Below are positions 16,767 to 64,000 of a stretch of 64,000 bases of DNA, piece by piece. Origin of the DNA: Marispirochaeta aestuarii (GTDB lineage: Bacteria > Spirochaetota > Spirochaetia > JC444 > Marispirochaetaceae); contig NZ_MWQY01000014.1 in NCBI RefSeq assembly GCF_002087085.1, positions 1 to 64,000 of the forward strand. The letters run 5' to 3'. The notes under the pieces are model-generated. The model was not told the origin of the DNA and made no database searches. It saw only the letters and a list, made by a program, of their open reading frames with translations. Every line of letters begins with the position of its first letter. Position 1 is the first letter of the stretch. A program made the position numbers and the translations under genes.

Positions 16767-17857
16767 GGATACTCATACAGACGACCTTTCAATGGAAGGA
16801 GACCGACCCTGTCTCCATGGTGATCGCAGGGCTTATCTTTGCCGGTTTTATTGTTTTTCTTTTTATCGCCAATGCTGCTTCCCGGAATTCCACAGGCAGA
16901 CCCTCTTCCGGCGGAAACAGGCGCTTCAGCAGACGGTCTTTCTACGTCCGGGCCAAGAGCCTGGGTCTGAATCATGTCCAGATCAAGACCCTGCAGAACC
17001 TGATCAAACGCTTCCAGCCTGTCAATCCCAACAATATTCTGTACAACTCATCCCAGCTTGACTCCCTCCTCAGGCGGGGAATTCAGAGTATTGACGGCCT
17101 GAGCGCTTCGGATCAGCAGAAGGAAAACCAGAAGCTCCAATTGTATCGTATAAAACAGAGTATTGAACGTAATTCAAGCCGCAAGACCCTCTATTCGAAC
17201 ACGAAACAGCTGACCGCGGGGATACAGCTTGTCCTTACCCCGGAACATGGGGGACGCTTTCAGAGCAAGCTCCTGACCAATCTCAAGGGCTCTCTGGCGG
17301 CCTCTGTTCCCCTGGATGCCGAGGGACACCAGATACGATGGAAACGCTGGACGAAACTCAATGTTTTTTTCTGGCGCTCCAACGGACAGGGATACTTCTT
17401 TACTACAAAAATCAGCGGCTATGGAAAGGTCCGGTCCGCGGATGCCCTTTTATTGAACCACACATCCTCTATAACCCAGGCCCAGCAGCGTAAATACCGG
17501 CGACGCAGCATAGAACGTCCCGCCTACTTTTTTCCCGTCCGAATCATGACCGAGGGCATTGGAAAGGATGCCAAAAAGCGGGCCTACGTGGAAGGCAACC
17601 GGGGAACCCTGGCAACCATGCTGGACATTTCCAGCGGCGGCTGCAGCATTCGTACATCCAGACCGCTGTCAAAGGGTGACCTTATCAAAGTTGATTTCGA
17701 GACCGACCAGCGATCGAAAATTTCCTTTTACGGCAAGGTAATGCACACCAGAAAAGCGCGTCCCTTCGGCGGGGTAATGCATATAATGTTCACCCGTATC
17801 AGCAAACGTAACCTTAATAACATCAACGCCTACATTTACAACTACAGTACCTCCTGA
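16763..17857 (+). CDS. Membrane-anchored PilZ-domain protein
   Basis: 364 aa, overlapping the previous gene by 4 bp (ATGA). One membrane helix near residues 18-38 (SMVIAGLIFAGFIVFLFI) is followed by a basic region, a helical region and a C-terminal PilZ domain with RKYRR (RxxxR) and DISSGGCSIR (DxSxxG), the residues that bind c-di-GMP. The architecture of an N-terminal membrane anchor, a central YcgR-N-like region and PilZ suggests a c-di-GMP receptor acting on the flagellar motor. It is the second PilZ protein in the motility region. Confidence 0.85.
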   Translation: MRILIQTTFQWKETDPVSMVIAGLIFAGFIVFLFIANAASRNSTGRPSSGGNRRFSRRSFYVRAKSLGLNHVQIKTLQNLIKRFQPVNPNNILYNSSQLDSLLRRGIQSIDGLSASDQQKENQKLQLYRIKQSIERNSSRKTLYSNTKQLTAGIQLVLTPEHGGRFQSKLLTNLKGSLAASVPLDAEGHQIRWKRWTKLNVFFWRSNGQGYFFTTKISGYGKVRSADALLLNHTSSITQAQQRKYRRRSIERPAYFFPVRIMTEGIGKDAKKRAYVEGNRGTLATMLDISSGGCSIRTSRPLSKGDLIKVDFETDQRSKISFYGKVMHTRKARPFGGVMHIMFTRISKRNLNNINAYIYNYSTS

Positions 17858-48232: not shown

Positions 48233-50347
48233 TTAAACGGTATGCTTATCTGACGTCCAGGCATACCGTTTTTTTATTGCCTCCAGGATCTGGTACTCCC
48301 GGAAGGGTTTGACGATAACCGCATTGCCTCCTGCATTCATAAACTCCTGTGCCTCGTCGCTTCCGGAATGAGCTGTCAGGGCGATAACAGGCACCCGGGA
48401 AAAATCTTCCCGGGCTTTAAGAATGCGGGTGGCTTCCTTACCATCCATGACTGGAAGCCCGATATCCATAAAAATAAGGTCGGGTTTATCCTCTATGGCC
48501 CTGTCTACCGCTTCCTGTCCGTTTGAGGCCTCCAGTACCGTATACCCGGCACTTTCCAGAACTCTTCGAAGGTACAGCATGTTTATACTCTCATCTTCAA
48601 CAATCAGGATCCTCTCTACAGAATCATTTCCGTCGGCGTTCACGGATACTTCGCTCTCTCCGCTTGTTTCCGGTCCATCCGGTTTATCACTTTTCCCCGG
48701 AGGGATGCTTAGCGTAAAGGTTGATCCTTTTCCTTCGACGGATTCAACATTCAGACGCCCTTTCATGAGTCCCACAAGGGATTTGACAATAGCCAATCCC
48801 AGACCTGCACCCTGGTGCGTTTTTGTATAGGGATTCTCGAGCTGTCGAAAGGAGTCGAAAATGCTGGACAGTTTCTCCTCCGGAATGCCCAGGCCCTCAT
48901 CTGCGACTGAAATTACAAGCTCCGAATCCACATGAGCCCTTACAGTAACGGTTCCTCCCTCGGAGTATTTAACAGCATTGGATACAAGGTTAATTATCAC
49001 CTGTCCAATTCGCGTCCGGTCTCCGGGAAAAAGGATTGCAGGATCCGGAAGTTCGGAGATTATTTTTATACCCTTTTCTCCTGCCGGTTTCTCCACCATC
49101 CTGATACAGTTTTCAATCACCTCCCTGGGACTGAAATTCTCTATCAGCAGGCGCAGACGGGAATTCTCCAGACGAGCTGTATCCAGAAGATCATCAATAA
49201 GCTTCAGCAGATATTCAGCTGAATAATCAGCCATATCGACGTACTCGGACTGTACTTCCGAGAGTTCGGTATTTCTCAGGAGAGCTGTCATACCCAGAAA
49301 ACCATTCACCGGTGTACGCAGTTCATGGCTTATATTTGCAAGAAAAAGGGTCTTTGCCCTGACAGCCTTTTCGAGGTTCTCCTGGATCTCTCTGCTCCGG
49401 ACCAGTTCCCGGTTCAGGGCAGCGGTTTTCTGTGAAACCTGTCGACGGAGTGTAAGAGTCCAGGATAATCCGATGAGAAAGAGGGCTCCCACACTTATGA
49501 GTACAAGGCGGGCTATTCTCGATCCCAGCAGTCGTCTCTCCTCGATCAGCCCGAACCACTTTTCATAAATCCTGTCATATTCACCATTGATTTTTATCAG
49601 GTTAAGTCCCTCGTTCAATATGGCGAGCAGCTTTGTATCGCCCTTTCGAACGGCAATGCAGTATGATCCGGTCAAAACCGATTCAGGAATAACCTTAAGG
49701 GATGTAATATCGTAGCGGTCAAGGATGATTCCCCCTTGAGTAAGGGATGCCAGGGCACAGTCGCCCTCTCCCTCAGCAAGACCGCGGATTACTTCTGTGA
49801 CGGAATCCTTTACAACAAGGGATTTTTCATAGCCCTTCTCCAGCAGATAATCATGAGCCAGGTCTCCCCGCTGTACCAGTATTCTGGAGTCCCTTGCATC
49901 CTCCATAACCCTGATATCTGAATTCCGGGGAACAAAGAGATTATAGGAAGCTATGAAATGGGGTATGGTGAAATCTGCTTTCCTGGCCCTTTCGGGGGTC
50001 CTGAACATTCCCATAAGAACATGAATCTCTCCTTCCTCAAGTTCCTCCCGGACCTCATGCCATGGGCCAAGATCGATAATCATCTCCAGCCCCAGGACTT
50101 CCTGTATGGCCTTCATGATATCCACATTGAAGCCTGATGGTTCGCCGTCTCCGTCAAGGAATTCAAAAGGCGGATATTGCCAGTCTCCTTTTACAACGAG
50201 GGTGGTGGTACCCGCCTCCTGAATAGAGACGGTTTGAACTCTGGAAGGTGTTTCATAAATAGCGTATTCTTCAGCACATCCGGATAATATGATTAAAAAA
50301 GTAGTAAAAATCAGCAATATCCGGAGCTTACTCCCTGAAGTGTTCAT
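48233..50347 (-). CDS. Hybrid sensor histidine kinase with solute-binding sensor domain and lipobox
   Basis: 704 aa. Residues 1-24 form a lipoprotein-like signal (LLIFTTFLIILSGC, Cys24). Residues 45-270 are a family 3 solute-binding domain (WQYPPFEFLDGDGEPSGFNVDIM), as in BvgS-type sensors. A membrane helix spans 281-300, then HisKA with ANISHELRTP (His341), HATPase (NLVSNAVKYSEGG, GAGLGLAIVKSLV) and a receiver domain (FMDIGLPVMDG, Asp628). It is the last gene of the minus-strand operon, overlapping the CheA-like gene by 4 bp, so it could exchange phosphate with that protein's HPt domain. Confidence 0.9.
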   Translation of the reverse strand: MNTSGSKLRILLIFTTFLIILSGCAEEYAIYETPSRVQTVSIQEAGTTTLVVKGDWQYPPFEFLDGDGEPSGFNVDIMKAIQEVLGLEMIIDLGPWHEVREELEEGEIHVLMGMFRTPERARKADFTIPHFIASYNLFVPRNSDIRVMEDARDSRILVQRGDLAHDYLLEKGYEKSLVVKDSVTEVIRGLAEGEGDCALASLTQGGIILDRYDITSLKVIPESVLTGSYCIAVRKGDTKLLAILNEGLNLIKINGEYDRIYEKWFGLIEERRLLGSRIARLVLISVGALFLIGLSWTLTLRRQVSQKTAALNRELVRSREIQENLEKAVRAKTLFLANISHELRTPVNGFLGMTALLRNTELSEVQSEYVDMADYSAEYLLKLIDDLLDTARLENSRLRLLIENFSPREVIENCIRMVEKPAGEKGIKIISELPDPAILFPGDRTRIGQVIINLVSNAVKYSEGGTVTVRAHVDSELVISVADEGLGIPEEKLSSIFDSFRQLENPYTKTHQGAGLGLAIVKSLVGLMKGRLNVESVEGKGSTFTLSIPPGKSDKPDGPETSGESEVSVNADGNDSVERILIVEDESINMLYLRRVLESAGYTVLEASNGQEAVDRAIEDKPDLIFMDIGLPVMDGKEATRILKAREDFSRVPVIALTAHSGSDEAQEFMNAGGNAVIVKPFREYQILEAIKKRYAWTSDKHTV
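48238..48275 (+). terminator. Intrinsic terminator of the PBP-Maf operon
   Basis: CGGTATGC (48238-48245) pairs with GCATACCG (48261-48268), followed by seven T (48269-48275). It lies inside the final codons of the convergent hybrid-kinase gene. Confidence 0.85.
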
Positions 50348-52209
50348 TCGTTCTGCATAACCGGGTTCTTAAGATTCAACAGGTCATCACTGGAAAGAAA
50401 ACTGATACCTGTTTTCAGACCACCAATCGAAAGCTGCGACAGGGGTTCTCCCCCCTCAGCTTCCGAGAGTACGAACAGATCGGCTGGAAATGACTCAATG
50501 AAAAGCAGCTTATCAACCAGAAGATAGTAATCCTCCCGGCTGTTTCTGATCTTTATCAGGGTATCCTCGGAAACAAAATTGTCGCTCCAGAAAAGATACC
50601 CCTCACAGGTATAGACCGGACAGCCCCGATACCGGACCCGTCCATCCCCGTCGTCCCGGAACCCTGTTTTCTCCGGTTTCTCATGCTCGAGAAAGACTGT
50701 ACCGTCCACAGCAATTGTGTGCCGCTTGTACCGGGCAAAATAGATCTTTCTCACGGATGCTTCCACCGGAATGCTGATACAGAACCGGGCTCCCTGATTC
50801 TCCCTGTTCTCAAGGCTGACGGTGGCGCCGGGTATACGTCCAATCTCCTCGGCAACGATATCGAGGCCTATACCTCTTCCCGCTTCCAGGGAAATAATCT
50901 CACTGGTGGAAAACCCCGGGGAGGTAATTATTCTGAACAGTGAAGCAGAGGAATCCAGACCGTGCTCCAGAGCCTTGTTCCGGATGGCTTTTTCATCCAT
51001 TCCTCTGCCGTCATCCTGAATATCGATACGGATCTCCTTGTCGCTCCGCTGGTACCGGACGGTGACCTCTCCCCGGGGGGATTTTCCCTCTTTCAGACGT
51101 GCGGCAGGCACTTCGATACCGTGACTTACGGCATTTCGCAGAAGCTGAACCAGGGGTCCCCTCAACCTGGGGACAAAGCAGCTCTCAAGCAGCTGTTCCC
51201 CGCCCTGCAGCAGACAACGGGCGTCTTTTCCCTGCTCCGCCGCGCTGTGATGAACTATTTCAGGCAAATCGTGAAAGATCGTTTCGAAAGGAACAAAACG
51301 GGTTGCCTGAAGGGCCTGACCGATACCGTCAAAGACCTCCGTAAGGCCGGAAGAGCCGCCTTTTATCGATTGGTCAGTCAGCTGTGTATGTATTTTCCCT
51401 TTGAGGTAATTAAACCAGATAGAGATAAGTTCATGGCGATTAATAATCAGCTGAGAATCGTCTTTGCCGGCTTTATCCCTGCTTTTCCGCGCCGGGGTAT
51501 CCGGCAGATACTGGTCCCAGTTCAGCCTGGTAAGGAAAACCCTTTTTACCTGGTCTACCTTGACCGCGTTAAAAAGATCCTTCTCGGGCCGGTGGGTGGT
51601 AAAAAAATATTCAGGGCTTATGTTTTCTTCCTCAAAGCCCTGGGACAGGTCCGGAAAGCTCCGTATAACATTGACAATCTGTTCCAGGTTATTCAGTATC
51701 AATACGGCTTTTGGATACAGCATCTCCGTCGGATCCTCAAATTCACAGATCATCCGGTAGAGGTACTCGCCCCTGTCCCGGGCCTCCCTGAGAAGCACGA
51801 GCTGGAACTCATTCAGGACTTCGAATCCCGCAAGCTTTTCTTCAGCCCTTCCCGCCGGGCTTGAGCCGGATTCATGAAGCGACGAAGGGGTATCACCGGA
51901 AGCGATACCTTCCCGGGAAACTGTATCTTCGATCCGCGAAACGGATTCGAAGAGTCGATTGAGATGTCCCTCGTACTGCGGTTCCTCTTTCAATTCCTGG
52001 AGTACCGATTCTGCTACATGCGTAAGATCCGCGATACTCTTTTTGCCCAAATGGGCCGCTTCCGATTTTATGCTGTGCATGAGACGGAAGGCATTGTCTA
52101 TGTCATCCCCCGTTGCGGTCCTGGACTCCAGCCTGGACAGAAGGGGATTCAGCCTCGCTAGATAATCCCGGGTGTCCCGTATAAACATCTTCTGATAATA
52201 GGCTGTCAC
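50344..52209 (-). CDS. Atypical CheA-like histidine kinase
   Basis: 621 aa, starting at GTG 52209 (AGGAG 6 nt upstream; GTGA overlap with the J-domain gene). The N-terminal HPt domain has LMHSIKSEAAHLG with phosphorylatable His45. After about 170 unrecognised residues comes a CheA-type ATPase: LVQLLRNAVSHGIE (N box), DDGRGMDEKAIRNKALEHGL (G1) and GRGIGLDIVAEEI (G2), preceded by the CheA-like RFVPFETIFHDLP. The C-terminal ~150 residues occupy the place of the CheW-like P5 domain but are divergent (VRKIYFARYKRHTIAVDG). This is not a canonical chemotaxis CheA; no cheW, cheY or receptor gene is nearby. Confidence 0.85.
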   Translation of the reverse strand: MTAYYQKMFIRDTRDYLARLNPLLSRLESRTATGDDIDNAFRLMHSIKSEAAHLGKKSIADLTHVAESVLQELKEEPQYEGHLNRLFESVSRIEDTVSREGIASGDTPSSLHESGSSPAGRAEEKLAGFEVLNEFQLVLLREARDRGEYLYRMICEFEDPTEMLYPKAVLILNNLEQIVNVIRSFPDLSQGFEEENISPEYFFTTHRPEKDLFNAVKVDQVKRVFLTRLNWDQYLPDTPARKSRDKAGKDDSQLIINRHELISIWFNYLKGKIHTQLTDQSIKGGSSGLTEVFDGIGQALQATRFVPFETIFHDLPEIVHHSAAEQGKDARCLLQGGEQLLESCFVPRLRGPLVQLLRNAVSHGIEVPAARLKEGKSPRGEVTVRYQRSDKEIRIDIQDDGRGMDEKAIRNKALEHGLDSSASLFRIITSPGFSTSEIISLEAGRGIGLDIVAEEIGRIPGATVSLENRENQGARFCISIPVEASVRKIYFARYKRHTIAVDGTVFLEHEKPEKTGFRDDGDGRVRYRGCPVYTCEGYLFWSDNFVSEDTLIKIRNSREDYYLLVDKLLFIESFPADLFVLSEAEGGEPLSQLSIGGLKTGISFLSSDDLLNLKNPVMQNE

Positions 52210-52880
52210 CTGGCACTCCTCTTCTGCTGCATGGAATTAAAAAGGCGTAATGATTTTCTGCGGATAACAGAACTGGTATCCTGCATACCTTTGATGATGA
52301 TCTCCCTGAAAGCGGAATAGTTATCTATCGCCATAAGGGTTTCCAGAATAGAGCTCTTTACTGCAATATCACCACGACGAAAAAGCGAAAAGAGATCCTG
52401 AGTTGCATAATCAATCTTGAGCTTCCCTATGGCGCGAACAGAAGATATCACGACCTGGGGATCCTTATCCTGGAGCGCCTTCCGCAGATAGACGTAACTG
52501 CTTTTCTGTCCACTGTTTCCAAGACGCAGGGCTGCAAAGGATCGCTGGTAGGGAGTTTTTCCATTCAGCAGGGTATTCCCCAGGCTGTGAAGACTCTCAT
52601 TTTTACCCCAGTTTCTTTCCGGTTGTGTCTTTTTTACCCCCTGACTTTTACGAAAGCCTGAGGCTTCCGGACGTGGAGGAAAATCGAGAATTCTCCTGGC
52701 AGACTTGAAACTGGAGATTGATCGATAGGCCTCCACTACCCTGGAAAAAGCAAGGTTGTCCGGCCGCTGGCCGGTATCCGGATGCAGCTCCATAACCATT
52801 CGCCGGTAGGCCCTTTTAATCTCCGAGTCAGGTGCCGATTCAGGGACACCCAGGATTCTAAAACACTCCCTAGCCAGCAC
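52206..52880 (-). CDS. J-domain protein with HEAT-like repeats
   Basis: 224 aa from GTG 52880, which has GGGAGG 6 nt upstream; the in-frame ATG 52901 has no ribosome site. Residues 1-65 are a J domain: CFRILGVPESAPDSEIKRAYRRMVMELHPDTG with the essential HPD triad. Residues 105-220 are HEAT-like helices (SFAALRLGNSGQKSSYVYLRKAL, DPQVVISSVRAIGKL). J proteins stimulate Hsp70 ATPase; here the partner is surely the Hsp70-like protein encoded just upstream, with overlapping ends. The HEAT part may bind the client or the CheA-like kinase downstream. Confidence 0.85.
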   Translation of the reverse strand: MLARECFRILGVPESAPDSEIKRAYRRMVMELHPDTGQRPDNLAFSRVVEAYRSISSFKSARRILDFPPRPEASGFRKSQGVKKTQPERNWGKNESLHSLGNTLLNGKTPYQRSFAALRLGNSGQKSSYVYLRKALQDKDPQVVISSVRAIGKLKIDYATQDLFSLFRRGDIAVKSSILETLMAIDNYSAFREIIIKGMQDTSSVIRRKSLRLFNSMQQKRSAR

Positions 52881-54330
52881 AATCAGCCTCCCTGCCCGCA
52901 TCCAGGGACTTGATCTCCTTCAGAATACTCCATAAAGCAATCGAACATTCCCGCCTGAGCCCTGGATCAGCTGATTTTTTTTGCCTGCGGGCAAGCTCCA
53001 GTATAGCATTGATATCCTCGGAAAACTCAGGATCGATAAAGAATCTTCGTCCCCGGTATTCCCGTTCAACCCGGGAAATAAGAATATCCATATCCTTGAT
53101 GCCGGAACCACACTTATCCCCGACCGCTTCCTTTATCATGATCTTCATGGTTTCAGAGATCCTTCCTGAAGGACTCTGCACGGTAACAGTCAGCATGCCG
53201 CTGGAGTGAAGAACGAACTGTATTTCGATTTTCGGTCGGCCCTGGAGAGCGGGAGGAATTTGGGGAAGCATAATCCGGCTGAGAGAAACAGTCCGGGACG
53301 GGTCTTCTGTGCTTCTCTGAATAACATGGATTTCTGCCCGTCGCTGATTATCCGCAAGGGTGGTAAAAATCCTTTTCTCCAGGGCCGGGAGAGGTCTGTC
53401 CTTTTGCATCATCCAGAACGGTCTGCCCCAGTCGATCTCCAGTCCGAAATCCGACGGAGATATCCCGACAGTTCCCTGCACCGGAGCCGTTCTCCTCTGA
53501 AACAGAAGCAGGGCACCCCTGGCTGCCGTATCCGCAGGACAAATTCTTACAGGTACCGATTCACGGAAGATCCTGCTGACACAGCTTTGAATGCACGGAA
53601 TATGAGATCCGCCTCCCGCAAGAAGGACGGTATCGATCTCTGATGTCCGGTGTCCCGATGACCGTAACAGCTGCCGCACAAGATCTTCTATGCGGCCGAT
53701 CCTGCTTCCAAGTATTTTCTCATAGTCCCGGCGATCAAGGCTCACCTGTACACCCTGCACGGAGGAGGTATATTCCGATGAAGAGCTCAGTGCGATCTTG
53801 AAGGCGTCGGAAACATTCTGTAATTTTCCGATTATGTTTCCCGTCTTCTTTTTAAGAAGTCCGCACATGTCCCGGGTAAAGCTGCCTCCCCCTGTGGAGC
53901 TATCGCTTAAACATCGATTCAGGCTGATATCATTGCCTTTAATCTCTACAAGGGATGCTTTGAAACTGCTCTCTCCGAAATCGAGAACCAGTACCGTACC
54001 GGTTGTACCATGCAACATGGCGGCCGCCGTTGCTTCTGCCTGGGGGATCAAACGTATCCGATGGAAACCGGCTTTTTTTGCGGCATCAGTAATCTCCCGG
54101 GATTGAATATCTCCGATACCTGCCGGAACAGCCACAACAGCGGTATCCGCATAGCCTGCAGTCTGCGCTTCGACGAGGGACTTAATCTGTTTGAAGCGCA
54201 TTTCCGTACTGCAGCCGGGCGCTGCCGGATGACTGGAGGATCCGTACCTGTCAAGAAACGTTTTTATTTTTTTGCCGTCAATTATCGTAACCGATGTATT
54301 CGCTGTACCAAAATCTATGCCTACTACCAT
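52870..54330 (-). CDS. Divergent Hsp70/DnaK-like protein
   Basis: 486 aa, shorter than DnaK (about 640). MVVGIDFGTANTSVTIIDGK (phosphate 1), VLVLDFGESSFKASLVEI (phosphate 2) and VLLAGGGSHIPCIQSCVSRIF (adenosine motif) define the Hsp70 ATPase. A shortened substrate-binding beta region follows (TPVQG... DFGLEIDWGRPFWMMQKDRPLP) and a reduced helical tail. Compared with DnaK the ATPase is compact and the lid is incomplete, so this is a specialised paralogue. Starts 5 bp after the upstream gene; its end overlaps the J-domain gene. Housekeeping dnaK is expected elsewhere. Confidence 0.85.
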   Translation of the reverse strand: MVVGIDFGTANTSVTIIDGKKIKTFLDRYGSSSHPAAPGCSTEMRFKQIKSLVEAQTAGYADTAVVAVPAGIGDIQSREITDAAKKAGFHRIRLIPQAEATAAAMLHGTTGTVLVLDFGESSFKASLVEIKGNDISLNRCLSDSSTGGGSFTRDMCGLLKKKTGNIIGKLQNVSDAFKIALSSSSEYTSSVQGVQVSLDRRDYEKILGSRIGRIEDLVRQLLRSSGHRTSEIDTVLLAGGGSHIPCIQSCVSRIFRESVPVRICPADTAARGALLLFQRRTAPVQGTVGISPSDFGLEIDWGRPFWMMQKDRPLPALEKRIFTTLADNQRRAEIHVIQRSTEDPSRTVSLSRIMLPQIPPALQGRPKIEIQFVLHSSGMLTVTVQSPSGRISETMKIMIKEAVGDKCGSGIKDMDILISRVEREYRGRRFFIDPEFSEDINAILELARRQKKSADPGLRRECSIALWSILKEIKSLDAGREADCAG

Positions 54331-54335
54331 ACCTT

Positions 54336-54902
54336 TTATCTATCGGTTTTTTCCGACAGCGAGATTATCAGTTCTACCTCCCCAAGAGGCCGTCCAACCT
54401 TGCCTGCTATTATTTTGGCGTCTATTCCCTTTCTTTTCAGCTCGAGTATTTCTTCTTTTATACCGGCCCCGCCGGTATTTTCACGGGAAGTATCGGTTTT
54501 TGTTTGCACAGCGTCTTTCCCCTCATTCCCGGTGGAAGATGAAGGTTCCGCGGATTTCTTGACCGGTTCCTCGATGACCTCGATGCTGAGGGGTTTATGC
54601 CGTGCCAGATGCAGATAATCTGTCCGGGAGCTGTCATCCCGTTTCTGGATCTCCCCCTGAAGAATTCGGATTCTCTTGTCGGCCTTTGACACTTCGTCCT
54701 TCAGACGGCGGATACTCTCTTCGATAAGCCGGATATTCCGGTCTGTTGTACCGTTCATTTCGACCAGAAGCGAGTCCAGTTCTGATTCAATTTCCATCAA
54801 CAGCTTTTTAGGCCTCACCGTCCTCTTATGTACTATCCGGAAAACCAGGATAAAAAGGATCCATGCAAGACCGTTTACGAGCAGGATTATTCCAAGAGTC
54901 AT
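54336..54902 (-). CDS. SwrB-like membrane-anchored coiled-coil protein
   Basis: 188 aa. One N-terminal membrane helix (LGIILLVNGLAWILFILVF), a coiled coil of about 75 residues (LLMEIESELDSLLVEMNG, IRRLKDEVSKADKRIRIL), a polar linker, then a small C-terminal helix-turn-helix-like domain (IKEEILELKRKGIDAKIIAGKVGRPLGEVELIISL). This layout resembles SwrB of Bacillus subtilis, encoded beside sigD at the end of the fla/che operon and promoting flagellar basal-body maturation. Location here, downstream of fliA and fapA, is comparable. Homology is suggested, not shown. Confidence 0.65.
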   Translation of the reverse strand: MTLGIILLVNGLAWILFILVFRIVHKRTVRPKKLLMEIESELDSLLVEMNGTTDRNIRLIEESIRRLKDEVSKADKRIRILQGEIQKRDDSSRTDYLHLARHKPLSIEVIEEPVKKSAEPSSSTGNEGKDAVQTKTDTSRENTGGAGIKEEILELKRKGIDAKIIAGKVGRPLGEVELIISLSEKTDR

Positions 54903-54904
54903 AT

Positions 54905-55231
54905 TTATCCGCTTATGTCTATTTTCTTGCCCAGGTCAGGGTCGCTGTAGTAGTTGCGGGATTCGTCCTTCGTTTCATTTTTTTCCTCTTTGCCTTTTTT
55001 ACGCTTTCTCCCTCCCCGGGATTCCTCGTCATCATCGTGAATCTTCTCGGGACCGTCGGAAAGAGGATTGGTCTGGTTGACACTTGAATCCTTCTGCTCG
55101 GTTTCACGGACCAGTTCACTGCCCGCTATAACCTGCTGCAGGTGCAGGCCCTGCTTCTGCTGGGCCTGATCCCTTCCTACCTGATTCATATGCATAAATA
55201 GTGTCTGCAGATCGATTGGTTTAATGGACAT
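54905..55231 (-). CDS. Small charged protein of the flagellar operon, unknown
   Basis: 108 aa. The N-terminal helix MSIKPIDLQTLFMHMNQVGRDQAQQKQGLHLQQ is followed by a very acidic then basic low-complexity region (HDDDEESRGGRKRKKGKEEKNE). Probably largely disordered. It overlaps the fapA stop by 1 bp and is 2 bp from the SwrB-like gene. No known family; similar small proteins occur in this position in spirochaetal flagellar operons, as far as I recall. Confidence 0.65.
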   Translation of the reverse strand: MSIKPIDLQTLFMHMNQVGRDQAQQKQGLHLQQVIAGSELVRETEQKDSSVNQTNPLSDGPEKIHDDDEESRGGRKRKKGKEEKNETKDESRNYYSDPDLGKKIDISG

Positions 55232-57174
55232 CAGTGGTTTTTGGAAAAGTCCTCCTCAAGGGCTTCGTACTTCGTAACCTTTACCTCATTCAACTCGTTG
55301 ATAAAGGTGACGTTTTTAAACTCATTCCGAATCTTAAGGCTCGCATCTTTGATAACCACTTTAACGCCGGGATATACCTTCCCTGAAGCGGAAACCTTTC
55401 CGTTTACCTTGAGAGATGCGAGATACTCCTGGATTTTTTTTATCTCTTCCTTTTTTTCATCCCGTTTTACTTCAATCTTTCGCTGCTGTCCCTGAAGTTC
55501 CTCAAGATACTGCTCCTTTTCTTCAGGCAGCGCCTTTTTCATTTTCTTGATATTCTCCAGGGTGTGGATATTCAGCTCGATCTCTTCCAGCTGATCATCA
55601 AAGGTCTTTATCTCTTTTTCCAGTCGCTGAATACTCTCGATACTCTTCGGATCGTAACCAACCTCGACGACAGTCTCCGCACCGGCCACTGAACCGATGT
55701 TCTTCGCATGGACCTCTTCACTGGCCCGCAGATGACCGCCTACGATGGTCGCCCGTTTTCCCTGGCAGATAATACGCTGATTAGCATCCACGGAACTGTT
55801 AATGATTCCGTCGCTGACAACGACGTTTTCACCGGATTCAACGTTGGAGTTTTCTATGAACTTTGCCCACACCGTGCGGCCGGCCCGGACAGTGCCGCCG
55901 CCCCGGCCGTTGACACCCTGATGGATGATGATATCCCCTTCAGCGTCCAGTTCGCATTTTCCGACGTTTCCGACAACCTCAATATTACCCGCGGCTTTAA
56001 CTTTAAAACCGTCTTCCACACCGCCTTTTACATAGACGGTCCCCAGGAATACCACGTTACCGCCGGTTTTCAGATTGACGCTTCCGTTGACAACGTGAAT
56101 CGGTTCCACATTCAGCTTGTCGTTCACGATGACAACCTGGCCGTTTATGGCCGCCACGGCGGTCATACCGTCTTCAGAAAGATTGACGTTCTTGCCTATT
56201 CCAAGGTTGACATCTTTTCCGTTTTTGGCCGGCAGCAGTTTTCCGGTTACGCTTCGTCCGTTTTTGCCTTCGCCGGCGGGTACCTTCCGGGCAAGAACCT
56301 GACCTTCGACTACATTCTGAACAATATTCTGTTCCTTGAAATCGACTTTACCGTTCTTCTCTTTCAGCTGGATCTTGTTGGAATCCCGTTCAAAATTATA
56401 CAGGATTCGAGCGTCTTCTCCATCCTGAGGTTTCGTACCCTCCGCCACCAGTATCGACTCGTTGTATACGGGACGATCGATAAATGCATTAATAGTCTCA
56501 TCCCTGAGACCATGGATGATGCCGTTGTTTTTGAGAAAATTTTCTATTACTTCATAGCTGAGATCTGAACCGCCCTCTCCCGGAGGCCGTACAACTATAT
56601 AGGCCTTCATCTCGAAATCGGTGATATCCACTGTCATGATAGGATCATTAGCCGGATTGTATGCGTATTCGCCAACCGGGATGTAATCTCCCGAGGCCTG
56701 CTTTACCACCTGGGCTATCATGTTTTTATCGAAATGGCTGACCCCTCGGCGATCAAGAGCATCAAGGGCCTGTCGTTCAGTCGCCTTTTTCCCCCCGCCC
56801 ACTGGAGGGCTGACCTTTAATAATATACCCTCAGGAGATAAACGGACAAAAACATCCCCGTTTCGAGTCTCCTCTTTTCCGTCGTCATCTCCGGCAAAAC
56901 CGAGATCGATGTCAAGGGCCTCTTCCTCTGGCAGCTGTTCTTCTGCTTTTTTATAGGCGATAAGGATGCAATCCTTCCTGCCGATACCGAAGGTCCCCCG
57001 GCTGCCGGGTTCGAGGAGTTCATATTCTATGTCTTTAAGCGGAATGCCCAGTTCAATGGAAGCCTGAGTCAGTGCATCTTCGATACTGGGACCGCTCACA
57101 TTGACGGATCTGCGGGTCTTATCCTCTTCCGCCTGGCTTCGCATGTACTCCCGGATACGGGACAATCCGACCAT
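55231..57174 (-). CDS. FapA (DUF342) family protein
   Basis: 647 aa. The first 65 residues form a Jag-N-like domain (SGPSIEDALTQASIELGIPLKDIEYELLEPGSRGTFGIGRK). The following ~450 residues are the DUF342/FapA beta-helix-like region with many glycine-rich turns (GNIEVVGNVGKCELDAEGDIIIHQGVNGRGG). A coiled coil (about 530-600; RLEKEIKTFDDQLEEIELNIHTL) precedes the end. FapA in Vibrio links glucose/PTS signals to FlhF; in spirochaetes it sits between fliA and small flagellar genes as here. Function here is not established. Starts 2 bp after fliA. Confidence 0.85.
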   Translation of the reverse strand: MVGLSRIREYMRSQAEEDKTRRSVNVSGPSIEDALTQASIELGIPLKDIEYELLEPGSRGTFGIGRKDCILIAYKKAEEQLPEEEALDIDLGFAGDDDGKEETRNGDVFVRLSPEGILLKVSPPVGGGKKATERQALDALDRRGVSHFDKNMIAQVVKQASGDYIPVGEYAYNPANDPIMTVDITDFEMKAYIVVRPPGEGGSDLSYEVIENFLKNNGIIHGLRDETINAFIDRPVYNESILVAEGTKPQDGEDARILYNFERDSNKIQLKEKNGKVDFKEQNIVQNVVEGQVLARKVPAGEGKNGRSVTGKLLPAKNGKDVNLGIGKNVNLSEDGMTAVAAINGQVVIVNDKLNVEPIHVVNGSVNLKTGGNVVFLGTVYVKGGVEDGFKVKAAGNIEVVGNVGKCELDAEGDIIIHQGVNGRGGGTVRAGRTVWAKFIENSNVESGENVVVSDGIINSSVDANQRIICQGKRATIVGGHLRASEEVHAKNIGSVAGAETVVEVGYDPKSIESIQRLEKEIKTFDDQLEEIELNIHTLENIKKMKKALPEEKEQYLEELQGQQRKIEVKRDEKKEEIKKIQEYLASLKVNGKVSASGKVYPGVKVVIKDASLKIRNEFKNVTFINELNEVKVTKYEALEEDFSKNH

Positions 57175-57176
57175 TA

Positions 57177-57965
57177 CTACATAATCCCCTTCTTGATATT
57201 CGTAAGCTTGGCCCTCAGGCGCATGATCGCCTTGGTATGCAACTGGGAAATTCGCGATTCAGTCACCTCCAGGACCTTTCCTATCTCCTTCAGAGTGAGA
57301 TCTTCATAATAGTAGAGTACAAGAACCTTTTTTTCTTTTTCCGGCAATTCATTTATCGCTTCGATAATTACCTTTTTAATCTCTTCTTTTTCTACAATAA
57401 TGTCCGGATTCAGACTCTGGGGTGACTCAATACTGTCGACAATCGATATTTTGTCGTTTTCCTCCCCGGAATACCAGACATCATTCAGGGACATTATGGA
57501 AGTACCGCTGATCTTGACCATCGCCCGGTGATACTCGTCAATATCCATACCCATTTCCGCGGCTATCTCCTGATCGGAAGCACTTCGTCCCAGGGAGGCT
57601 TCGAGACGCTGAACGGTATCCTCTATCTCCCGTGCTTTCTGACGCACCGACCGCGGAACCCAGTCGATGGACCTGAGCTCATCGAAGATTGCCCCCCTGA
57701 TGCGGGTTACCGCATAGGTTTTGAATTTCACGTGCTTTTCAGGGTCAAACTTGTTTATCGCATCAATCAGTCCAAAAACTCCGAAACCCACCAGGTCATC
57801 GAACTCAACGTTATGCGGCATTCCCATGGCGACCTTTCCGGCAACGTATTTAACCAGAGGCGCATACTGCTTTACAAAAGCATCGCGTATTTTTGGATCC
57901 CGGTTTTTCTTGTAAAGGGCCCAGAGTTCTTCTTCAGTTTTTCCCTGCAATGCGGTCTCTGCCAT
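57177..57965 (-). CDS. fliA: RNA polymerase sigma-28 factor (FliA/WhiG type)
   Basis: 262 aa. Regions 2, 3 and 4 are visible: [66 protein letters not shown] (2), then [11 protein letters not shown], and [40 protein letters not shown] (4), in the FliA/WhiG order. It recognises TAAA-15-GCCGATAA promoters; candidates here precede flaB copy 1 and flgN. It lies 3 bp after the two-helix protein gene and 2 bp before fapA. No anti-sigma flgM was found in the window. Confidence 0.95.
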
Positions 57966-57968
57966 ATC

Positions 57969-58601
57969 TTATCCTTCCTGGTCCCGTTTCATCATCGTTT
58001 TCACAGCCCTGGCTACATCTCCCGGATTCTGGGTCTCCCCAAGTATATCCACCTCAGACTCCCTTCCTCCGGACGAAGGTTCCTCGTCGGATTCGGAACC
58101 CCAGCCGGAATCGAAGGAATCGCTGAAGGCGTCCAGACTGGGAAGACCATCTAGCTCTTCAACCGAATCTACCGCTTCCTCGCCTTCGTCATCGGAAACA
58201 GAACCATCAGGTTCCGATGAAGTGGAAGCCTGAATTTCCTCAACAAAACCGTCACCTTCGGAAAAGAGATCACCAGCTCCGGAGGCAGTATCGAATTTTC
58301 TCCCGGTCTCATCATCCTCGAGGGTAATATCAACGCTTCCACCCGGGCTTTTCTCAGGCTCATCCTCAGTGCCTGCATCCTGGTCCACCGATTTTTTATT
58401 CTCAGGGATAAGCTCCGGAAACAATGTTCTTCCCAGGAGAGCTACCCCCATTCCCAGGCCGGCAAAAACAAGCCCGGACAGGAAGGCCCTGACAATAATA
58501 CTCAGAAAGCCAACCCCGCTTATAAGTCCGATTAAAAACGATGCAATAAACGCGAAACCGGCAGGGCCGGCCGCAAACAGCCAGGACACCACTTTATGCA
58601 C
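57969..58601 (-). CDS. Two-helix membrane protein with acidic domain, unknown
   Basis: 210 aa. The N-terminus has two membrane helices (VVSWLFAAGPAGFAFIASFLIGLISGVGFLSIIVRAFL and SGLVFAGLGMGVALLG). The rest is strongly acidic with repeated DDE and SD segments (DEPEKSPGGSVDITLEDDE, GSVSDDEGEEAVDS), ending GDVARAVKTMMKRDQ. Likely a short cytoplasmic tether. It sits between flhG and fliA in the flagellar operon, a position occupied by a similar gene in other spirochaetes. Role unknown. Confidence 0.65.
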   Translation of the reverse strand: MHKVVSWLFAAGPAGFAFIASFLIGLISGVGFLSIIVRAFLSGLVFAGLGMGVALLGRTLFPELIPENKKSVDQDAGTEDEPEKSPGGSVDITLEDDETGRKFDTASGAGDLFSEGDGFVEEIQASTSSEPDGSVSDDEGEEAVDSVEELDGLPSLDAFSDSFDSGWGSESDEEPSSGGRESEVDILGETQNPGDVARAVKTMMKRDQEG

Positions 58602-58661: not shown

Positions 58662-59522
58662 CTAGTCTTTGCCCAGAAGCTTCCGGATAAAATTTCCAAT
58701 ACCGCTCCCCTCACGGTACTCAACCTTCTCAAGACGTCCGACAATATGCTTGACGCAGATAGCGGCTTTGCTGTTTGGGTCCACCACCATAAAAGGTTTC
58801 TGCTTCAATACGGAAGAACTGACCACCGGGTCGTCATATACATACCCGAGATAATCAACCTTCAGATTCAGAAACTGACCTGCTATGCTGATTACCCGCT
58901 CAGAAACCTTTTTGCCCTCAGTAACCGACTTGACCCGGTTGACAATCAACTTGAGTCCCAGGTTCATGTTGTCTATTTCCGTAGCGATTATCTTGATAAT
59001 ACCATAGGCATCGGTGATGGCGGTGGGCTCGGGAGTTGTTACGATAAGGGCCTCATCCGCGGCGGCAATAAAATCCAGTACATTGTGAGACACTCCGGCG
59101 CTCGTATCTATGACGATTACATCCGCCTCCGAGAGCCCCGAAAGTTCTTCAATAAAGTGCTCCCGTTCCTCATCAGAAAGATTGGCGATCTTGGAAAATC
59201 CGGAAGCCCCCGCGATTATCTGAATACCATAGTTGGTATCCAGAAGGATTTCCTGCAGGTTCTTCTGCTTTCGAATCAAATGGTAGAGATTATATTTCGG
59301 GATAATTCCCAGTACCACATTGACATTCGCCAGTCCGAGGTCGGCATCCATTACGATGACCTTTTTCCCCAGCCGGGCATAGGCAAGGGCAATATTTATG
59401 GACAGATTCGTTTTGCCGACCCCACCCTTTCCGCTCGCCACGGCGATTATCCGGGTTTTCTGATTCCCGGCACCGTTTTTCGAACGCATGATTTCCCGCA
59501 GCTGTTCCGCTTGATCCGTCAT
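58662..59522 (-). CDS. flhG: FlhG/FleN flagellar number regulator (MinD-like ATPase)
   Basis: 286 aa from ATG 59522, which overlaps the flhF stop as ATGA and has GGAG 7 nt upstream; ATG 59528 is less likely. VASGKGGVGKTNLSINIALAYARLGKKVIVMDADLGLANVNVVLG is the deviant Walker A plus switch I of the MinD/ParA family. The N-terminal DQAEQLREIMRS is a FlhF-activating DQAxxLR motif of FlhG. It regulates flagellar number and placement by stimulating FlhF GTPase. Confidence 0.93.
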   Translation of the reverse strand: MTDQAEQLREIMRSKNGAGNQKTRIIAVASGKGGVGKTNLSINIALAYARLGKKVIVMDADLGLANVNVVLGIIPKYNLYHLIRKQKNLQEILLDTNYGIQIIAGASGFSKIANLSDEEREHFIEELSGLSEADVIVIDTSAGVSHNVLDFIAAADEALIVTTPEPTAITDAYGIIKIIATEIDNMNLGLKLIVNRVKSVTEGKKVSERVISIAGQFLNLKVDYLGYVYDDPVVSSSVLKQKPFMVVDPNSKAAICVKHIVGRLEKVEYREGSGIGNFIRKLLGKD

Positions 59523-60730
59523 TCCCATACTCCGTTCTTGACATATTCAGCCCCCGACGGGGTACCACTTGCCCGTCCTTCCCTGGGACGTAAACTCATT
59601 TTAGCAGATTTAAAACCATCGAGATTCATCAACAGCCGGGGTACGGATGCTTCATGTATGTCCTGAGGTACAGATTGTCCGTCGGTAAGAAAAGCAACCG
59701 GTTTGTTGTGCTCGGTGATGACACTGATAACATTTCCAATGCGCTGGGTCTCATCAAGCTTTGTCAGAATTATAGCCTGGTACCCGAAGGGTTCAAAGGT
59801 TTTGAAAAGATCCTTTATGTCAGAAATCTTGGTGGTGGAACTCAAGGTAAGAAAGACTTCGGCATCGTGACCACAGGCATCCAGCATCTCCCGCATCTCG
59901 GCGAGTTTCATATAGTCCCTGGGACTCTTTCCTATGGTATCGATAAGTATCAGGTCCGCTCCCTCGTACAGGGCCAGGGTCTTCTTCAGGTCCTGAAAAC
60001 TCTCGACACCGCTTACCGGAATATTCATGATGCTCCCGTAGGTGTCGATCTGCTGTTTGGCACCTATACGGTAATTGTCGATGGTTATCATGCGGACATC
60101 CACAGGCTTCCCGCCCTTGTGTCCCAGTCCATAGATGGCGGCGAGTTTCGCGATTGTCGTCGTTTTTCCCACCCCGGTGGGACCAACCAGAATCATAATT
60201 TTCGGAGTTACCCTGGGCTCGTATATTTTGATCTTCTCACCGATCCACTGAAACACCGAGGACTCCACAATATCCTGACGGTCCAGATCTTCCAGGGACA
60301 TCTCACGACGCAATCGGTTACTCATTTCACGGATAAACCCGGCGCTGAACTCATTTTCCTCGAGGAGCTGTTCCATCGCCACAATCGAGGGATGAAGCTC
60401 CTCCTGTTTCTGGGGTTCATGGGTATCCAGACGTTCCTGTATGGCGTTAACTGCTTTGAGAACCTGCTGCAGGGTTCCGTCGCTGCTTCCCTTGACGCTT
60501 TCCAGAATCTTTTTTCGTTCCTCTTCCGGATCAAGCATCTTCCTCGGCGGCTTGGGTGCTTCCTTTGCAATATATCCCGTTACCTCTATGCCCTCCCGGG
60601 CGAACATTCCCAGGAAACCGCCCACACGTACACTTCGCTGGGTAAGCACACGGGCTCTTTCGCCATAACGGTCCCGTATTTTTTGCAGTACTTCACGGTG
60701 CGAAGCCGCCCGCTCAGTAAAATACTCCAT
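59519..60730 (-). CDS. flhF: Flagellar biosynthesis GTPase FlhF
   Basis: 403 aa. The N-terminal B domain (FTERAASHREVLQKIRDRYGERARVLTQRSV) precedes an N-G SRP-type GTPase: VGPTGVGKTTTIAKLAAIY (G1), DVRMITIDNYRIGAKQQIDTYG (G2), ILIDTIGKSPRD (G3) and ILTKLDET (G4). It is paralogous to FtsY/Ffh. FlhF recruits the export apparatus to the cell pole, matching subpolar flagella in spirochaetes. flhG overlaps its end; a 74-bp gap separates it from flhA. Confidence 0.95.
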   Translation of the reverse strand: MEYFTERAASHREVLQKIRDRYGERARVLTQRSVRVGGFLGMFAREGIEVTGYIAKEAPKPPRKMLDPEEERKKILESVKGSSDGTLQQVLKAVNAIQERLDTHEPQKQEELHPSIVAMEQLLEENEFSAGFIREMSNRLRREMSLEDLDRQDIVESSVFQWIGEKIKIYEPRVTPKIMILVGPTGVGKTTTIAKLAAIYGLGHKGGKPVDVRMITIDNYRIGAKQQIDTYGSIMNIPVSGVESFQDLKKTLALYEGADLILIDTIGKSPRDYMKLAEMREMLDACGHDAEVFLTLSSTTKISDIKDLFKTFEPFGYQAIILTKLDETQRIGNVISVITEHNKPVAFLTDGQSVPQDIHEASVPRLLMNLDGFKSAKMSLRPREGRASGTPSGAEYVKNGVWE

Positions 60731-60804: not shown

Positions 60805-62904
60805 TCAGGCGCTTTCGCGCTCATCCAGGCTTATTTCTCCCAGAGGTTCAATGTTTATGTCCGTCGGTATCTCCGGAACCGACAGGACCGCTACTTCCGG
60901 CAGATCCCGCAGAAGACTTGCCCGGACCAGGGGCCGGGCAGCTTCGGAACAGAGGATCAGGGGAACATAGCCCTGACGCTGTACGCTGTGAACGGCATTC
61001 GCGACAGCGTTAATCCAGCGACGATAGAGCCCCGGTTCCAGCGCTGCCGTGACTCCTGATGCCGTTTCCGTTCTCGAATCGATAATCTCCCCTTCCATCT
61101 CAGGATTTATCGTCAGCACGTGCAGAATCTTGTTGCCATCACTGAACTGCAGGCAGATCTGCCGTCCCAGAATCTGCCGCGCCTTTTCTGTCAGGAAGGT
61201 CGTATCCTTCGATACCGGGGCATAATCCGCCAGGGCCTCGAGAATGGGTACCATATTCCGTATGGAAACGTGTTCAGCCAGCAGGGATTGCAGGACCTTT
61301 TGAATCTCTCCCAGGGAGAGGACCTTGGTAACCTCATCCACAACGGCCGAGTAATCGCGCTTGAGCTCATCCAGGATCTTCCGCATCTCCTGACGTCCCA
61401 GCATCTCCCAGGCATGGGATTTGATGATTTCCGTCAGATGCGTTGCGATTATCGAAGGACTGTCCACGACAGTATAGCCGGCACGCTCCGCCTTGTCCCG
61501 CAAGTCCTCGGTTATCCAGAGGGCGGGAAGTCCGAAAGCCGGATCCCTGGTGGATTCTCCCTGCAGCTCCGTCTCAACGCCTCCGGGATTGATGGCAAGG
61601 AACTGCCCCGTCCGTATCGTTCCCCGGCCGACCTCGACACCCTTTATCTTTATGCAGTATTCAGAGGGTTCGAGGCGCATGTTGTCGATAATCCGTATCC
61701 GCGGAACCGCCAGACCCAGTTCCAGGGCGGTCTCGCGGCGGATGCGGGTGATTCTATCCAGCAGCTCCGCCCCCTGGTCCCTGTCGACCAGGGGTATAAG
61801 TCCGTATCCGAGTTCCAGCGAAAGGGGATCCACCGGAACGACGGGAGCGAACTCCGTCGGTCCTTCGGGTGCCCGCTCCTTCTCCGCCGCCTCTTCCGCC
61901 TGTTCCCGGAAGCGGACCTCCTTACGGGTAAGCCGGAAAGCCACGATCCCGGTAAGTATCCCCAGGGGTATCATGATGTACCAGGGGAAGCCCGGCAGGA
62001 GTCCCAGAAGGATTAAAGCAACAGCGGCGATCCAGTATACCCTGGACTGCTGAGAGAACTGCTTTGATACATCCGAGCCGAAAGTACCGTCTGATATTGC
62101 TCGGGTAACGATAAGACCGGTGGCGACGGAGACCAGCAGGGCCGGGAACTGGGTTACCAGTCCGTCGCCGACAGTCAGGGAAACATAGTTGTTCAGGGCT
62201 GCCGCAAAGGGTTCCCCGTGGATCGACATGCCCACGATCAGTCCGCCGATCATGTTTATCAGTGTAATGAGAATTCCGACTTTGACGTTACCCGAGACAA
62301 ACTTCGTCGAACCGTCCATGGCCCCGTAAAAGTCAACTTCCCGCTGCAGGTCGTTCTTCTTTTTCTGGGCCTCCTCCTCCGTCAGGGAACCGGAATTGTA
62401 CTCCGCTTCAATTGCCATCTGTTTTCCCGGCAGGGAATCAAGGGTAAAACGGGCGGCGACTTCCGCGACCCTGGTTGCACCCTTGGTAATTACAATGAAC
62501 TGGACCGCGATTATTATGATGAATATGATAAGCCCGATAACAAGACCCTCGGAACCGGAAGTTCCGACGACAAAGGTCGCAAAGGCCCTGACTATTCGTC
62601 CGTCAAAATTGATTCCCTGGGAAAGAATCAAGCGGGTGGAAGAAATATTCAAGCCGAGACCGAACACGGTGGTTATAAGCAGTAAAGTCGGGAACACCGA
62701 AAAATCCAGTGCCCTGTGGGTATACAGAACAATGAGGATAACCACAAGGCTGAGCATCAGGTTCAATGCCATGAGAAGGTCAAGAATGAATGTGGGCAGG
62801 GGAATGATCAGCATCATTACAAAGAACAGAACACCCACGGCTACAAAAACATCACTGCGATTATTCAGAAAAGAGGTGGAGAGTATTTTCTGTACATCCG
62901 ACAT
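60805..62904 (-). CDS. flhA: Flagellar type III export gate protein FlhA
   Basis: 699 aa. The N-terminal half has about eight membrane helices (DVFVAVGVLFFVMMLIIPLPTFILDLLMALN); the FHIPEP-like loop is seen as RFTLDSLPGKQMAIEAEYNSGSLTEEEA, and the large C-terminal domain (LGYGLIPLVDRDQGAELLDRI, WITEDLRDKAERAGYTVVDSPSIIATHL) docks substrates and chaperones. FlhA is the proton-using core of the flagellar export gate. Its start overlaps the flhB stop by 1 bp. Confidence 0.97.
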   Translation of the reverse strand: MSDVQKILSTSFLNNRSDVFVAVGVLFFVMMLIIPLPTFILDLLMALNLMLSLVVILIVLYTHRALDFSVFPTLLLITTVFGLGLNISSTRLILSQGINFDGRIVRAFATFVVGTSGSEGLVIGLIIFIIIIAVQFIVITKGATRVAEVAARFTLDSLPGKQMAIEAEYNSGSLTEEEAQKKKNDLQREVDFYGAMDGSTKFVSGNVKVGILITLINMIGGLIVGMSIHGEPFAAALNNYVSLTVGDGLVTQFPALLVSVATGLIVTRAISDGTFGSDVSKQFSQQSRVYWIAAVALILLGLLPGFPWYIMIPLGILTGIVAFRLTRKEVRFREQAEEAAEKERAPEGPTEFAPVVPVDPLSLELGYGLIPLVDRDQGAELLDRITRIRRETALELGLAVPRIRIIDNMRLEPSEYCIKIKGVEVGRGTIRTGQFLAINPGGVETELQGESTRDPAFGLPALWITEDLRDKAERAGYTVVDSPSIIATHLTEIIKSHAWEMLGRQEMRKILDELKRDYSAVVDEVTKVLSLGEIQKVLQSLLAEHVSIRNMVPILEALADYAPVSKDTTFLTEKARQILGRQICLQFSDGNKILHVLTINPEMEGEIIDSRTETASGVTAALEPGLYRRWINAVANAVHSVQRQGYVPLILCSEAARPLVRASLLRDLPEVAVLSVPEIPTDINIEPLGEISLDERESA

Positions 62905-64000
62905 CAGCCTACCTCCCTTTCACGCCCGGCCATGCCGTAAACCTGGGCAAGGATAATGGCGGTTACTTCGTAATATGTTTCGGGAATCTCATCCCCTATT
63001 TCCACCTCGGCGTACAGGGCCCGGGCGAGAGGTTTATTTTCGATTACCGGAACACTGTTCTCCCGGGCAATCTCCCTTATTCTCAGGGCCATGTTGTCCT
63101 GCCCCTTGGCGCTGACCGTGGGGGCGGACATGGTTTCCCGCTTCCACTGCAGTGCTATGGCAAAGTGCGTCGGGTTAGTAATGACCACATCCGCCTCGGG
63201 TACCGCACGCATCATATTCTGGGAGAGAATCTGCTGCATCCGTTCCCTCAGCCTGCTCTTTATTAGGGGATCTCCCTCGGTCATCTTCCGTTCTTCCTTC
63301 AACTCCTGCTTGCTCATTTTCAGGGATTCCCGGTGCTGATGACGCTGGAACATGTAATCGGGAAACGAGAGTGCAAGCATCAGCAGTGCAGCCTCTATAA
63401 GAATCTTGAGAGCTGCAAGGGCTATTGCCTGCAGGGACATGAAGAAGGGGACATCCACGAAGCGTACAATCCTGTCCATCTCCATTCGTATATTGATATA
63501 GGCGACAAGACCGATGGCAATGACTTTGAAGAAAGTCTTCCCCAGGTTGAAAAGAGCTTCCGTGGAAAAGAAGGATCTCTGCAGGAATTTCCCCAGGTTC
63601 GGAACAATCTTGTTCATATCAGGGGTAATGGTCTTTGTGGTAAACAGAAAGCCCACCTGCAGAAGGTTCGCCATTATGGCGGAAACGAAGGCGATTCCAA
63701 AAACCGGCAGGGTAAGACGGGCGGAATACCGGACAAAAACGGGGAAGATTCCATTATCGCCCACTATATTCGTTTCCACCGACACCGTAAAAAAGTATTG
63801 AATCATCTCGAGCATTGTTTTCAGCGTATAGGATCCCAGAAGTGCGATGGCGAGAATGGGAAAAAGCAGGACTATGGCTGCGGAGAATTCGGAGGATTTG
63901 GCGACCTTGCCCTCTTCCCGGGCTTTTCGAATCTTATGCTCCGTCGGGTCCTCGGTTCTTCCTTCATCCTCCGCGGCAAACCAGTTTAAAGGAATCTCCC
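62904..64000 (-). CDS. flhB: Flagellar export switch protein FlhB (5' end beyond window)
   Basis: The frame stays open to the window end; reading from 63998 gives EIPLNWFAAEDEGRTEDPTEHKIRKAREEGKVAKS, the classical FlhB N-terminus, so only a few residues lie outside. Four membrane helices follow (FAVLLLF-, GIAFVSAIMANLLQ-type segments). The C-terminal cytoplasmic domain has the self-cleavage motif VVITNPTHFAIALQW (NPTH). FlhB switches export from hook to filament substrates. It overlaps flhA by 1 bp. Confidence 0.96.
   Translation of the reverse strand, partial: EIPLNWFAAEDEGRTEDPTEHKIRKAREEGKVAKSSEFSAAIVLLFPILAIALLGSYTLKTMLEMIQYFFTVSVETNIVGDNGIFPVFVRYSARLTLPVFGIAFVSAIMANLLQVGFLFTTKTITPDMNKIVPNLGKFLQRSFFSTEALFNLGKTFFKVIAIGLVAYINIRMEMDRIVRFVDVPFFMSLQAIALAALKILIEAALLMLALSFPDYMFQRHQHRESLKMSKQELKEERKMTEGDPLIKSRLRERMQQILSQNMMRAVPEADVVITNPTHFAIALQWKRETMSAPTVSAKGQDNMALRIREIARENSVPVIENKPLARALYAEVEIGDEIPETYYEVTAIILAQVYGMAGREREVG

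Follow-up and report, generated by a model that had tools for sequence, protein, structure and literature searches.

An Hsp70/J-HEAT gene pair conserved at the end of the spirochete flagellar operon, with a CheA-like kinase and, in two Marispirochaeta genomes, a hybrid kinase

We analyzed a 64,000-nucleotide stretch of the Marispirochaeta aestuarii genome (contig NZ_MWQY01000014.1, positions 1 to 64,000; hereafter, the window) using a list of its open reading frames and a Pfam scan. From flhB to a hybrid kinase gene, 13 genes follow one another on the minus strand:

62904..63998, minus strand, flhB, which runs off the window
60805..62904, minus strand, flhA
59519..60730, minus strand, flhF
58662..59528, minus strand, flhG
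57969..58601, minus strand, flgV, homologous to Borrelia BB0268 and in the equivalent position
57177..57965, minus strand, fliA, encoding sigma-28
55231..57174, minus strand, fapA with a Jag_N domain
54905..55231, minus strand, orf108, in the YjfB position (by position only; no Pfam match)
54336..54902, minus strand, orf188, a transmembrane (TM) and HTH-like protein (DUF6115-like)
52870..54330, minus strand, Hsp70-like protein of 486 aa
52206..52880, minus strand, protein with a J-domain and HEAT repeats (preferred start GTG at 52880; possible alternative ATG at 52901)
50344..52209, minus strand, CheA-like kinase
48233..50347, minus strand, hybrid kinase, a recent addition

The last four genes, placed after the flhB to fapA series, encode in order an Hsp70-like protein (Pfam Hsp70), a J-domain/HEAT protein (DnaJ and HEAT; hereafter, J-HEAT), a CheA-like kinase (Hpt, P2, and HATPase), and a hybrid kinase (SBP_bac_3, HisKA, HATPase, and Response_reg), and they are joined by overlaps or by gaps of no more than 5 bp. 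The initial annotation of this locus had described a 13-gene minus-strand run with tight junctions, and the open reading frames and Pfam matches bear this out, with gaps that range from −32 or −11 bp, depending on the J-HEAT start, up to 74 bp. The most likely J-HEAT start is the GTG at 52880, which we prefer because the motif AGGGAGG lies upstream and close orthologues start there. The positions of orf108 and orf188 match those of YjfB and of the TM and HTH protein described in PMC11607428. Because a plus-strand gene at 46401-48173 converges on the operon, we place the end of the transcription unit at 48233; scans for promoters and terminators gave a signal barely above that of shuffled sequence. 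Of the two converging genes (44547-48173, plus strand), one encodes a SpoVD/FtsI-like penicillin-binding protein and the other a 590-aa protein weakly similar to PseD (flagellin modification); this convergent pair is found again in numerous relatives, at L073, L074, L077, L080, L083, L093, L115, L127, L129, L133, and L138.

We searched 395 genomes of the class Spirochaetia with a J-HEAT profile and annotated the surroundings of approximately 60 loci with profiles. Wherever the contig was long enough, the J-HEAT locus lay directly after flhA-flhF-flhG-flgV-fliA-fapA-orf108-orf188. The pair of Hsp70 and J-HEAT genes occupies the end of the flagellar superoperon in about 20 families of Spirochaetia, and also in other classes; because this order is kept in dozens of genomes, the arrangement is not due to chance. 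At four loci (L223, L224, L229, and L230, from families f40 and f47 of another class), the pair has no recognized flagellar neighbor, and these genomes have flhA. We also drew a sample that was picked via fliA rather than via the chaperones. In this sample, 15 loci have both Hsp70 and J-HEAT, none has Hsp70 alone, one has J-HEAT alone, and 41 have neither (p = 7e-13); related genomes were counted singly, therefore this p value overstates the evidence, but the pairing is still plain. Within a 198-genome sample of the class, 35 of the 165 genomes that have flhA also have J-HEAT, against 0 of 33 flagella-less genomes, defined as those without flhA (p = 0.002). Treponema and many other genomes with flagella do without the pair, indicating that it is not essential for flagella. 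To judge from gene order and distribution, the chaperone pair is an old and little-noticed part of spirochete motility gene clusters.

The CheA-like gene follows a different pattern. Our combined locus table contains 36 loci with Hsp70, J-HEAT, and CheA, 12 with Hsp70 and J-HEAT and no CheA, 28 with CheA and neither chaperone gene, five with CheW and CheA, eight with none of these genes (several of them Treponema), and two with Hsp70 alone (Borrelia), the remainder being reduced forms. In all, 33 genomes have CheA but neither chaperone gene at the locus, and 16 have Hsp70 and/or J-HEAT but no CheA there. The presence of CheA is independent of the pair in the combined table, part of which was chosen by J-HEAT (p = 0.48), and the corresponding value in the fliA sample alone is p = 0.09. 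Families f4, f6, f8, and f13 retain the pair at the flagellar operon and have no CheA there. Since CheA is found with or without the chaperones, they are not obligate assemblers of a relay. In other classes, locus L225 reads fapA-orf108-orf188-Hsp70-J/HEAT-cheW-cheR-orf-cheD-cheA-cheY-cheB and L227 reads Hsp70-J/HEAT-cheW-cheR-cheA; L228 has equal spacing, with a putative cheR. The recurrence of the order fliA-fapA-Hsp70-J/HEAT-che in another class places the pair at the junction of flagellar and chemotaxis genes. Between flgV and fliA, L225 additionally carries a gene for a 362-aa protein without a Pfam match (16493-17581).

The Hsp70-like protein of the window retains the N-terminal phosphate loop (GIDxGTxN, present as GIDFGTAN). 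Alignment showed a loss of catalytic residues that the initial annotation had missed: the region around DnaK Lys70 (subdomain IB) is absent, Glu171 is lost, and GESSFK replaces GGGTFD, so that GESS stands for GGGT in the Thr199 motif. The beta substrate-binding domain and the helical tail, or lid, are kept, as seen in the alignment, an AlphaFold model, and Foldseek matches to DnaK. Among 55 long orthologues, the catalytic residues Lys70, Glu171, and Thr199 are intact in 53; their loss is limited to the window species and its sister L073, and the third congener, L074, is intact. Judged by its residues, the Hsp70 of the window species and one sister species is therefore ATPase-dead. Between these two species, the frame stays open over approximately 490 codons, the C-terminal tail is 62% identical, and dN is 0.44, the fastest among the genes compared. 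With dS saturated, dN/dS values are rough; the value of about 0.18 for Hsp70 indicates that the dead-ATPase protein remains under purifying selection rather than drifting freely. In a tree whose rooting was confined to the DnaK clade, DnaK forms a separate, fully supported clade apart from the operon Hsp70s. The operon Hsp70 is reduced or gone in L080, L082, L083, L106, L127, L128, and L131, and what survives of it in L080 and L127 is the substrate-binding part. The window genome has a housekeeping DnaK, and there is no GrpE at the window locus.

The J-domain of the window J-HEAT protein (Pfam DnaJ, 7e-12) has an intact HPD motif at residues 40 to 42 of the 231-aa reading. Of 61 orthologues, 58 have an intact HPD. 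The three exceptions, L127, L128, and L131, have lost the Hsp70 ATPase domain as well; because L127 and L128 belong to one genus, these losses represent about two events. The Hsp70 substrate-binding piece and the HEAT repeats are retained in L127. This pattern of loss fits a J-domain and an ATPase domain that act jointly, with the substrate-binding and HEAT parts being useful in their own right. At L131 (9646-10173), an apparent deletion has taken out the J-domain together with most of Hsp70, leaving the first ~44 aa of the Hsp70-like part of this ORF fused to the HEAT portion of J-HEAT. Candidate Hsp70-J gene fusions in family f4 (open reading frames of 773 to 790 aa) proved to be long overlapping frames and were rejected. 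In the lineage with the dead Hsp70, no part of J-HEAT is more constrained than the J-domain (86% identity, dN/dS about 0.05). This conservation beside a dead Hsp70 suggests that another Hsp70 is recruited. Most J domains are intact even where Hsp70 is dead or missing, which would fit recruitment of DnaK.

In the CheA-like kinase, the phosphorylatable His45 of the HPt domain is invariant in 29 aligned CheA-like proteins. The N, G1, F, and G2 boxes of the P4 ATPase domain are intact (HATPase, 5e-14), and the G1 motif is kept in 43 of 44 CheA-like proteins. P2, with a Pfam match (1e-4) just under the Pfam cutoff, is the most constrained part of the protein between the window and its sister lineage (79% identity). 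Pfam finds no P3, and the AlphaFold model has two helices at 258 to 304, partly at low confidence; the P5 fold is seen in the model and by Foldseek (matches 1b3q, 2ch4, and 6s1k), and a Pfam CheW match is absent. There is no cheW gene in the window block by Pfam, and neither CheW nor CheY adjoins the CheA-like gene. At L184, L197, L201, and L127, the operon ends in cheW-cheA-cheY. Together with the che clusters of other classes, these relatives make the window gene best read as a remnant of a chemotaxis cluster; it is a diverged chemotaxis CheA that has lost CheW and CheY. Two further ideas were rejected. The operon CheAs were not recovered as one clade apart from canonical CheA, because those of L127, L184, and L197 fall together with the window genome's three canonical CheAs. 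A conserved fifth gene after CheA was also not found; the neighbors differ among families (ABC, AMP-binding, SBP5, and TetR), except for cheY in L184, L197, L201, and L127. At L084 (1839-2834), a caspase-domain (Peptidase_C14) gene is convergent to the CheA-like gene.

The hybrid kinase, of 704 residues, has a lipobox (LSGC, residues 21 to 24), one family-3 solute-binding domain, HisKA and HATPase domains, and a receiver (residues 580 to 692), after which it ends with no C-terminal HPt. The receiver aspartate is Asp627 rather than Asp628, the residue given earlier alongside a correctly numbered HPt His45. Two of the three Marispirochaeta genomes have the gene, those of the window species and of L073 (70% identical); it is absent from the third, L074, and from all other families examined. 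By its distribution, it is a recent addition that stands outside the conserved block, a point that the initial annotation had also missed. A partnership between this kinase and the CheA-like HPt is possible; the window genome has 13 HPt matches, one of which is the CheA-like protein. In family f4 and relatives without CheA (L102, L107, L108, L110, L111, L113, L114, L116, and L117), two convergent genes downstream of J-HEAT match the hybrid-kinase profile: a kinase of approximately 400 to 780 aa and a protein of approximately 455 aa that matches weakly over approximately 100 aa.

The arrangement is thus real and conserved, and the reading of it as a four-gene machine is only partly right. The initial annotation had inferred that the chaperone pair may assemble or gate a CheA/hybrid-kinase relay that senses a solute outside the cell and influences motility. 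What stands is that the flagellar cluster includes a dedicated Hsp70/J pair and a CheA-type kinase; a four-gene solute-reading relay is very unlikely, even though the four genes are adjacent and overlapping in the window, the CheA-like protein carries an HPt, which the hybrid kinase, with its receiver, lacks, and other classes have the pair directly before a full che cluster. Against it, CheA and the chaperones occur apart too often (33 and 16 genomes, with p = 0.48 for association), 12 further HPt matches are available in the genome, and the residues through which J-proteins act are lost from the window Hsp70. A survey for scattering had been proposed as the check, and it found that Hsp70, J-HEAT, and CheA are not scattered; the hybrid kinase is absent from the third congener and from other families rather than scattered, which in effect refutes its place as a shared member of the relay. 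It is extremely improbable that all four genes stand together merely because the operon end gathers unrelated genes. The variable gene after CheA shows that such additions happen, and this explanation holds for the hybrid kinase; for Hsp70, J-HEAT, and CheA it is already disfavored, given that the adjacency and position of Hsp70 and J-HEAT are kept across families and classes.

Two other explanations concern what the pair does. It could be a chaperone of chemotaxis arrays (CheA, CheW, and receptors) rather than of the flagellum, lying between both gene sets and having traveled with the che genes. The gene order of L225, L227, and L228 and the 36 loci in which Hsp70 and J-HEAT precede CheA are consistent with this, but in f4, f6, f8, and f13 the pair stays at a flagellar operon that has no CheA, and the Borrelia Hsp70 has no adjoining che gene; we regard an array chaperone as unlikely. 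We are similarly doubtful that the window Hsp70 is a functionless, decaying remnant, with J-HEAT serving DnaK alone. The loss of ATPase residues and subdomain IB, the high dN, and the seven loci where Hsp70 is reduced or gone would all be expected of decay; however, a frame that has stayed open in the two species at saturated dS, a dN/dS of about 0.18, and a conserved tail would not, and the fragments surviving in L080 and L127 are specifically the substrate-binding part.

We consider it somewhat probable that the locus joins two old modules, a dedicated flagellar Hsp70/J-HEAT pair and a diverged CheA, to a newcomer hybrid kinase, and that the Hsp70 of the window acts as an adaptor. The gene content, order, conservation, co-occurrence, and residue status on which this reading rests come directly from the analysis. 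All three parts would ride the flagellar transcript. The HEAT repeats may pick a flagellar client (basal body, export, or motor) and hand it to the Hsp70 substrate-binding domain, and in most relatives the J-domain HPD would then drive Hsp70 ATP hydrolysis. In the window species and its sister, the loss of ATPase residues under continued purifying selection suggests that Hsp70 is probably a non-hydrolyzing adaptor, with the intact J-domain recruiting the housekeeping DnaK. The diverged CheA would be the leftover of a cheW-cheR-cheD-cheA-cheY-cheB cluster that once lay behind the pair; it probably still autophosphorylates His45 and, through P2, probably donates the phosphate to a CheY-type regulator whose gene lies elsewhere. 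The solute-binding hybrid kinase would have been added in the Marispirochaeta lineage. What we infer from these data are the clients, the ATPase activities, the targets of phosphotransfer, and the handover to DnaK. A broader proposal, possible but rather doubtful, is that a phylum-wide Hsp70/J-HEAT system of the fla/che superoperon assembles the endoflagellar motor, with the Marispirochaeta version being a RAC-like triad (a dead Hsp70 adaptor and a J-protein commanding DnaK).

We know of no Hsp70 system dedicated to flagellar assembly or to chemotaxis. A literature search, with subscription journals mostly outside its scope, returned none either; it found no paper treating the operon Hsp70 or the J-HEAT protein and none describing the pair, and for bb0264 it found FlgV work only. 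The arrangement as a whole likewise seems undescribed in the literature, in agreement with the initial annotation, which knew of no described system with this gene set. Its main interest is that an Hsp70 system dedicated to the flagellum, seemingly undescribed so far, can now be tested. Gene order gives the uncharacterized flagellar-operon Hsp70 of Borrelia a testable role, the dead-ATPase lineage offers a bacterial natural experiment on an Hsp70 becoming an adaptor, and the locus illustrates a chemotaxis kinase stripped of its partners inside an operon.

Several known systems resemble parts of this locus. The flgB superoperon of Borrelia burgdorferi ends (bb0265-bb0264) in a short orf188-like protein and then an Hsp70-like protein, after flhB-flhA-flhF-flhG-flgV-fapA, and bb0272-bb0264 are reported to be cotranscribed (PMC11607428). 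Unlike in the window, neither J-HEAT nor CheA is found there, and the Hsp70, which from its position would be BB0264, keeps its ATPase residues. With DnaK-DnaJ, the window pair shares the Hsp70 fold and a J-domain with HPD; however, J-HEAT bears HEAT repeats where DnaJ has zinc and substrate domains, the operon Hsp70s fall outside the DnaK clade, the locus has no GrpE, and the window ATPase residues are lost. The CheA-like kinase has the HPt, P2, and P4 of the CheA of fla/che operons (Thermotoga, E. coli, and B. subtilis) and, in its model, a P5 fold, but lacks Pfam P3 and CheW matches and an adjoining CheW or CheY. The hybrid kinase, like those of the BvgS/EvgS type, joins a family-3 solute-binding domain to a hybrid kinase, but it has one binding domain, an N-terminal lipobox, and no C-terminal HPt. 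By its residues, the window lineage resembles yeast Ssz1-Zuo1 with Ssb in having a non-hydrolyzing Hsp70, a J-protein with an intact HPD, and a canonical Hsp70 at hand. Ssz1 binds ATP and is without the alpha lid (PMC8476630, PMC7083937), whereas the window Hsp70 lacks subdomain IB and keeps its helical tail, and the ribosome-binding parts are absent from the window pair. As an analogy only, and not as a claim of membership, Ssz1-Zuo1-Ssb would be the closest working parallel for the window lineage.
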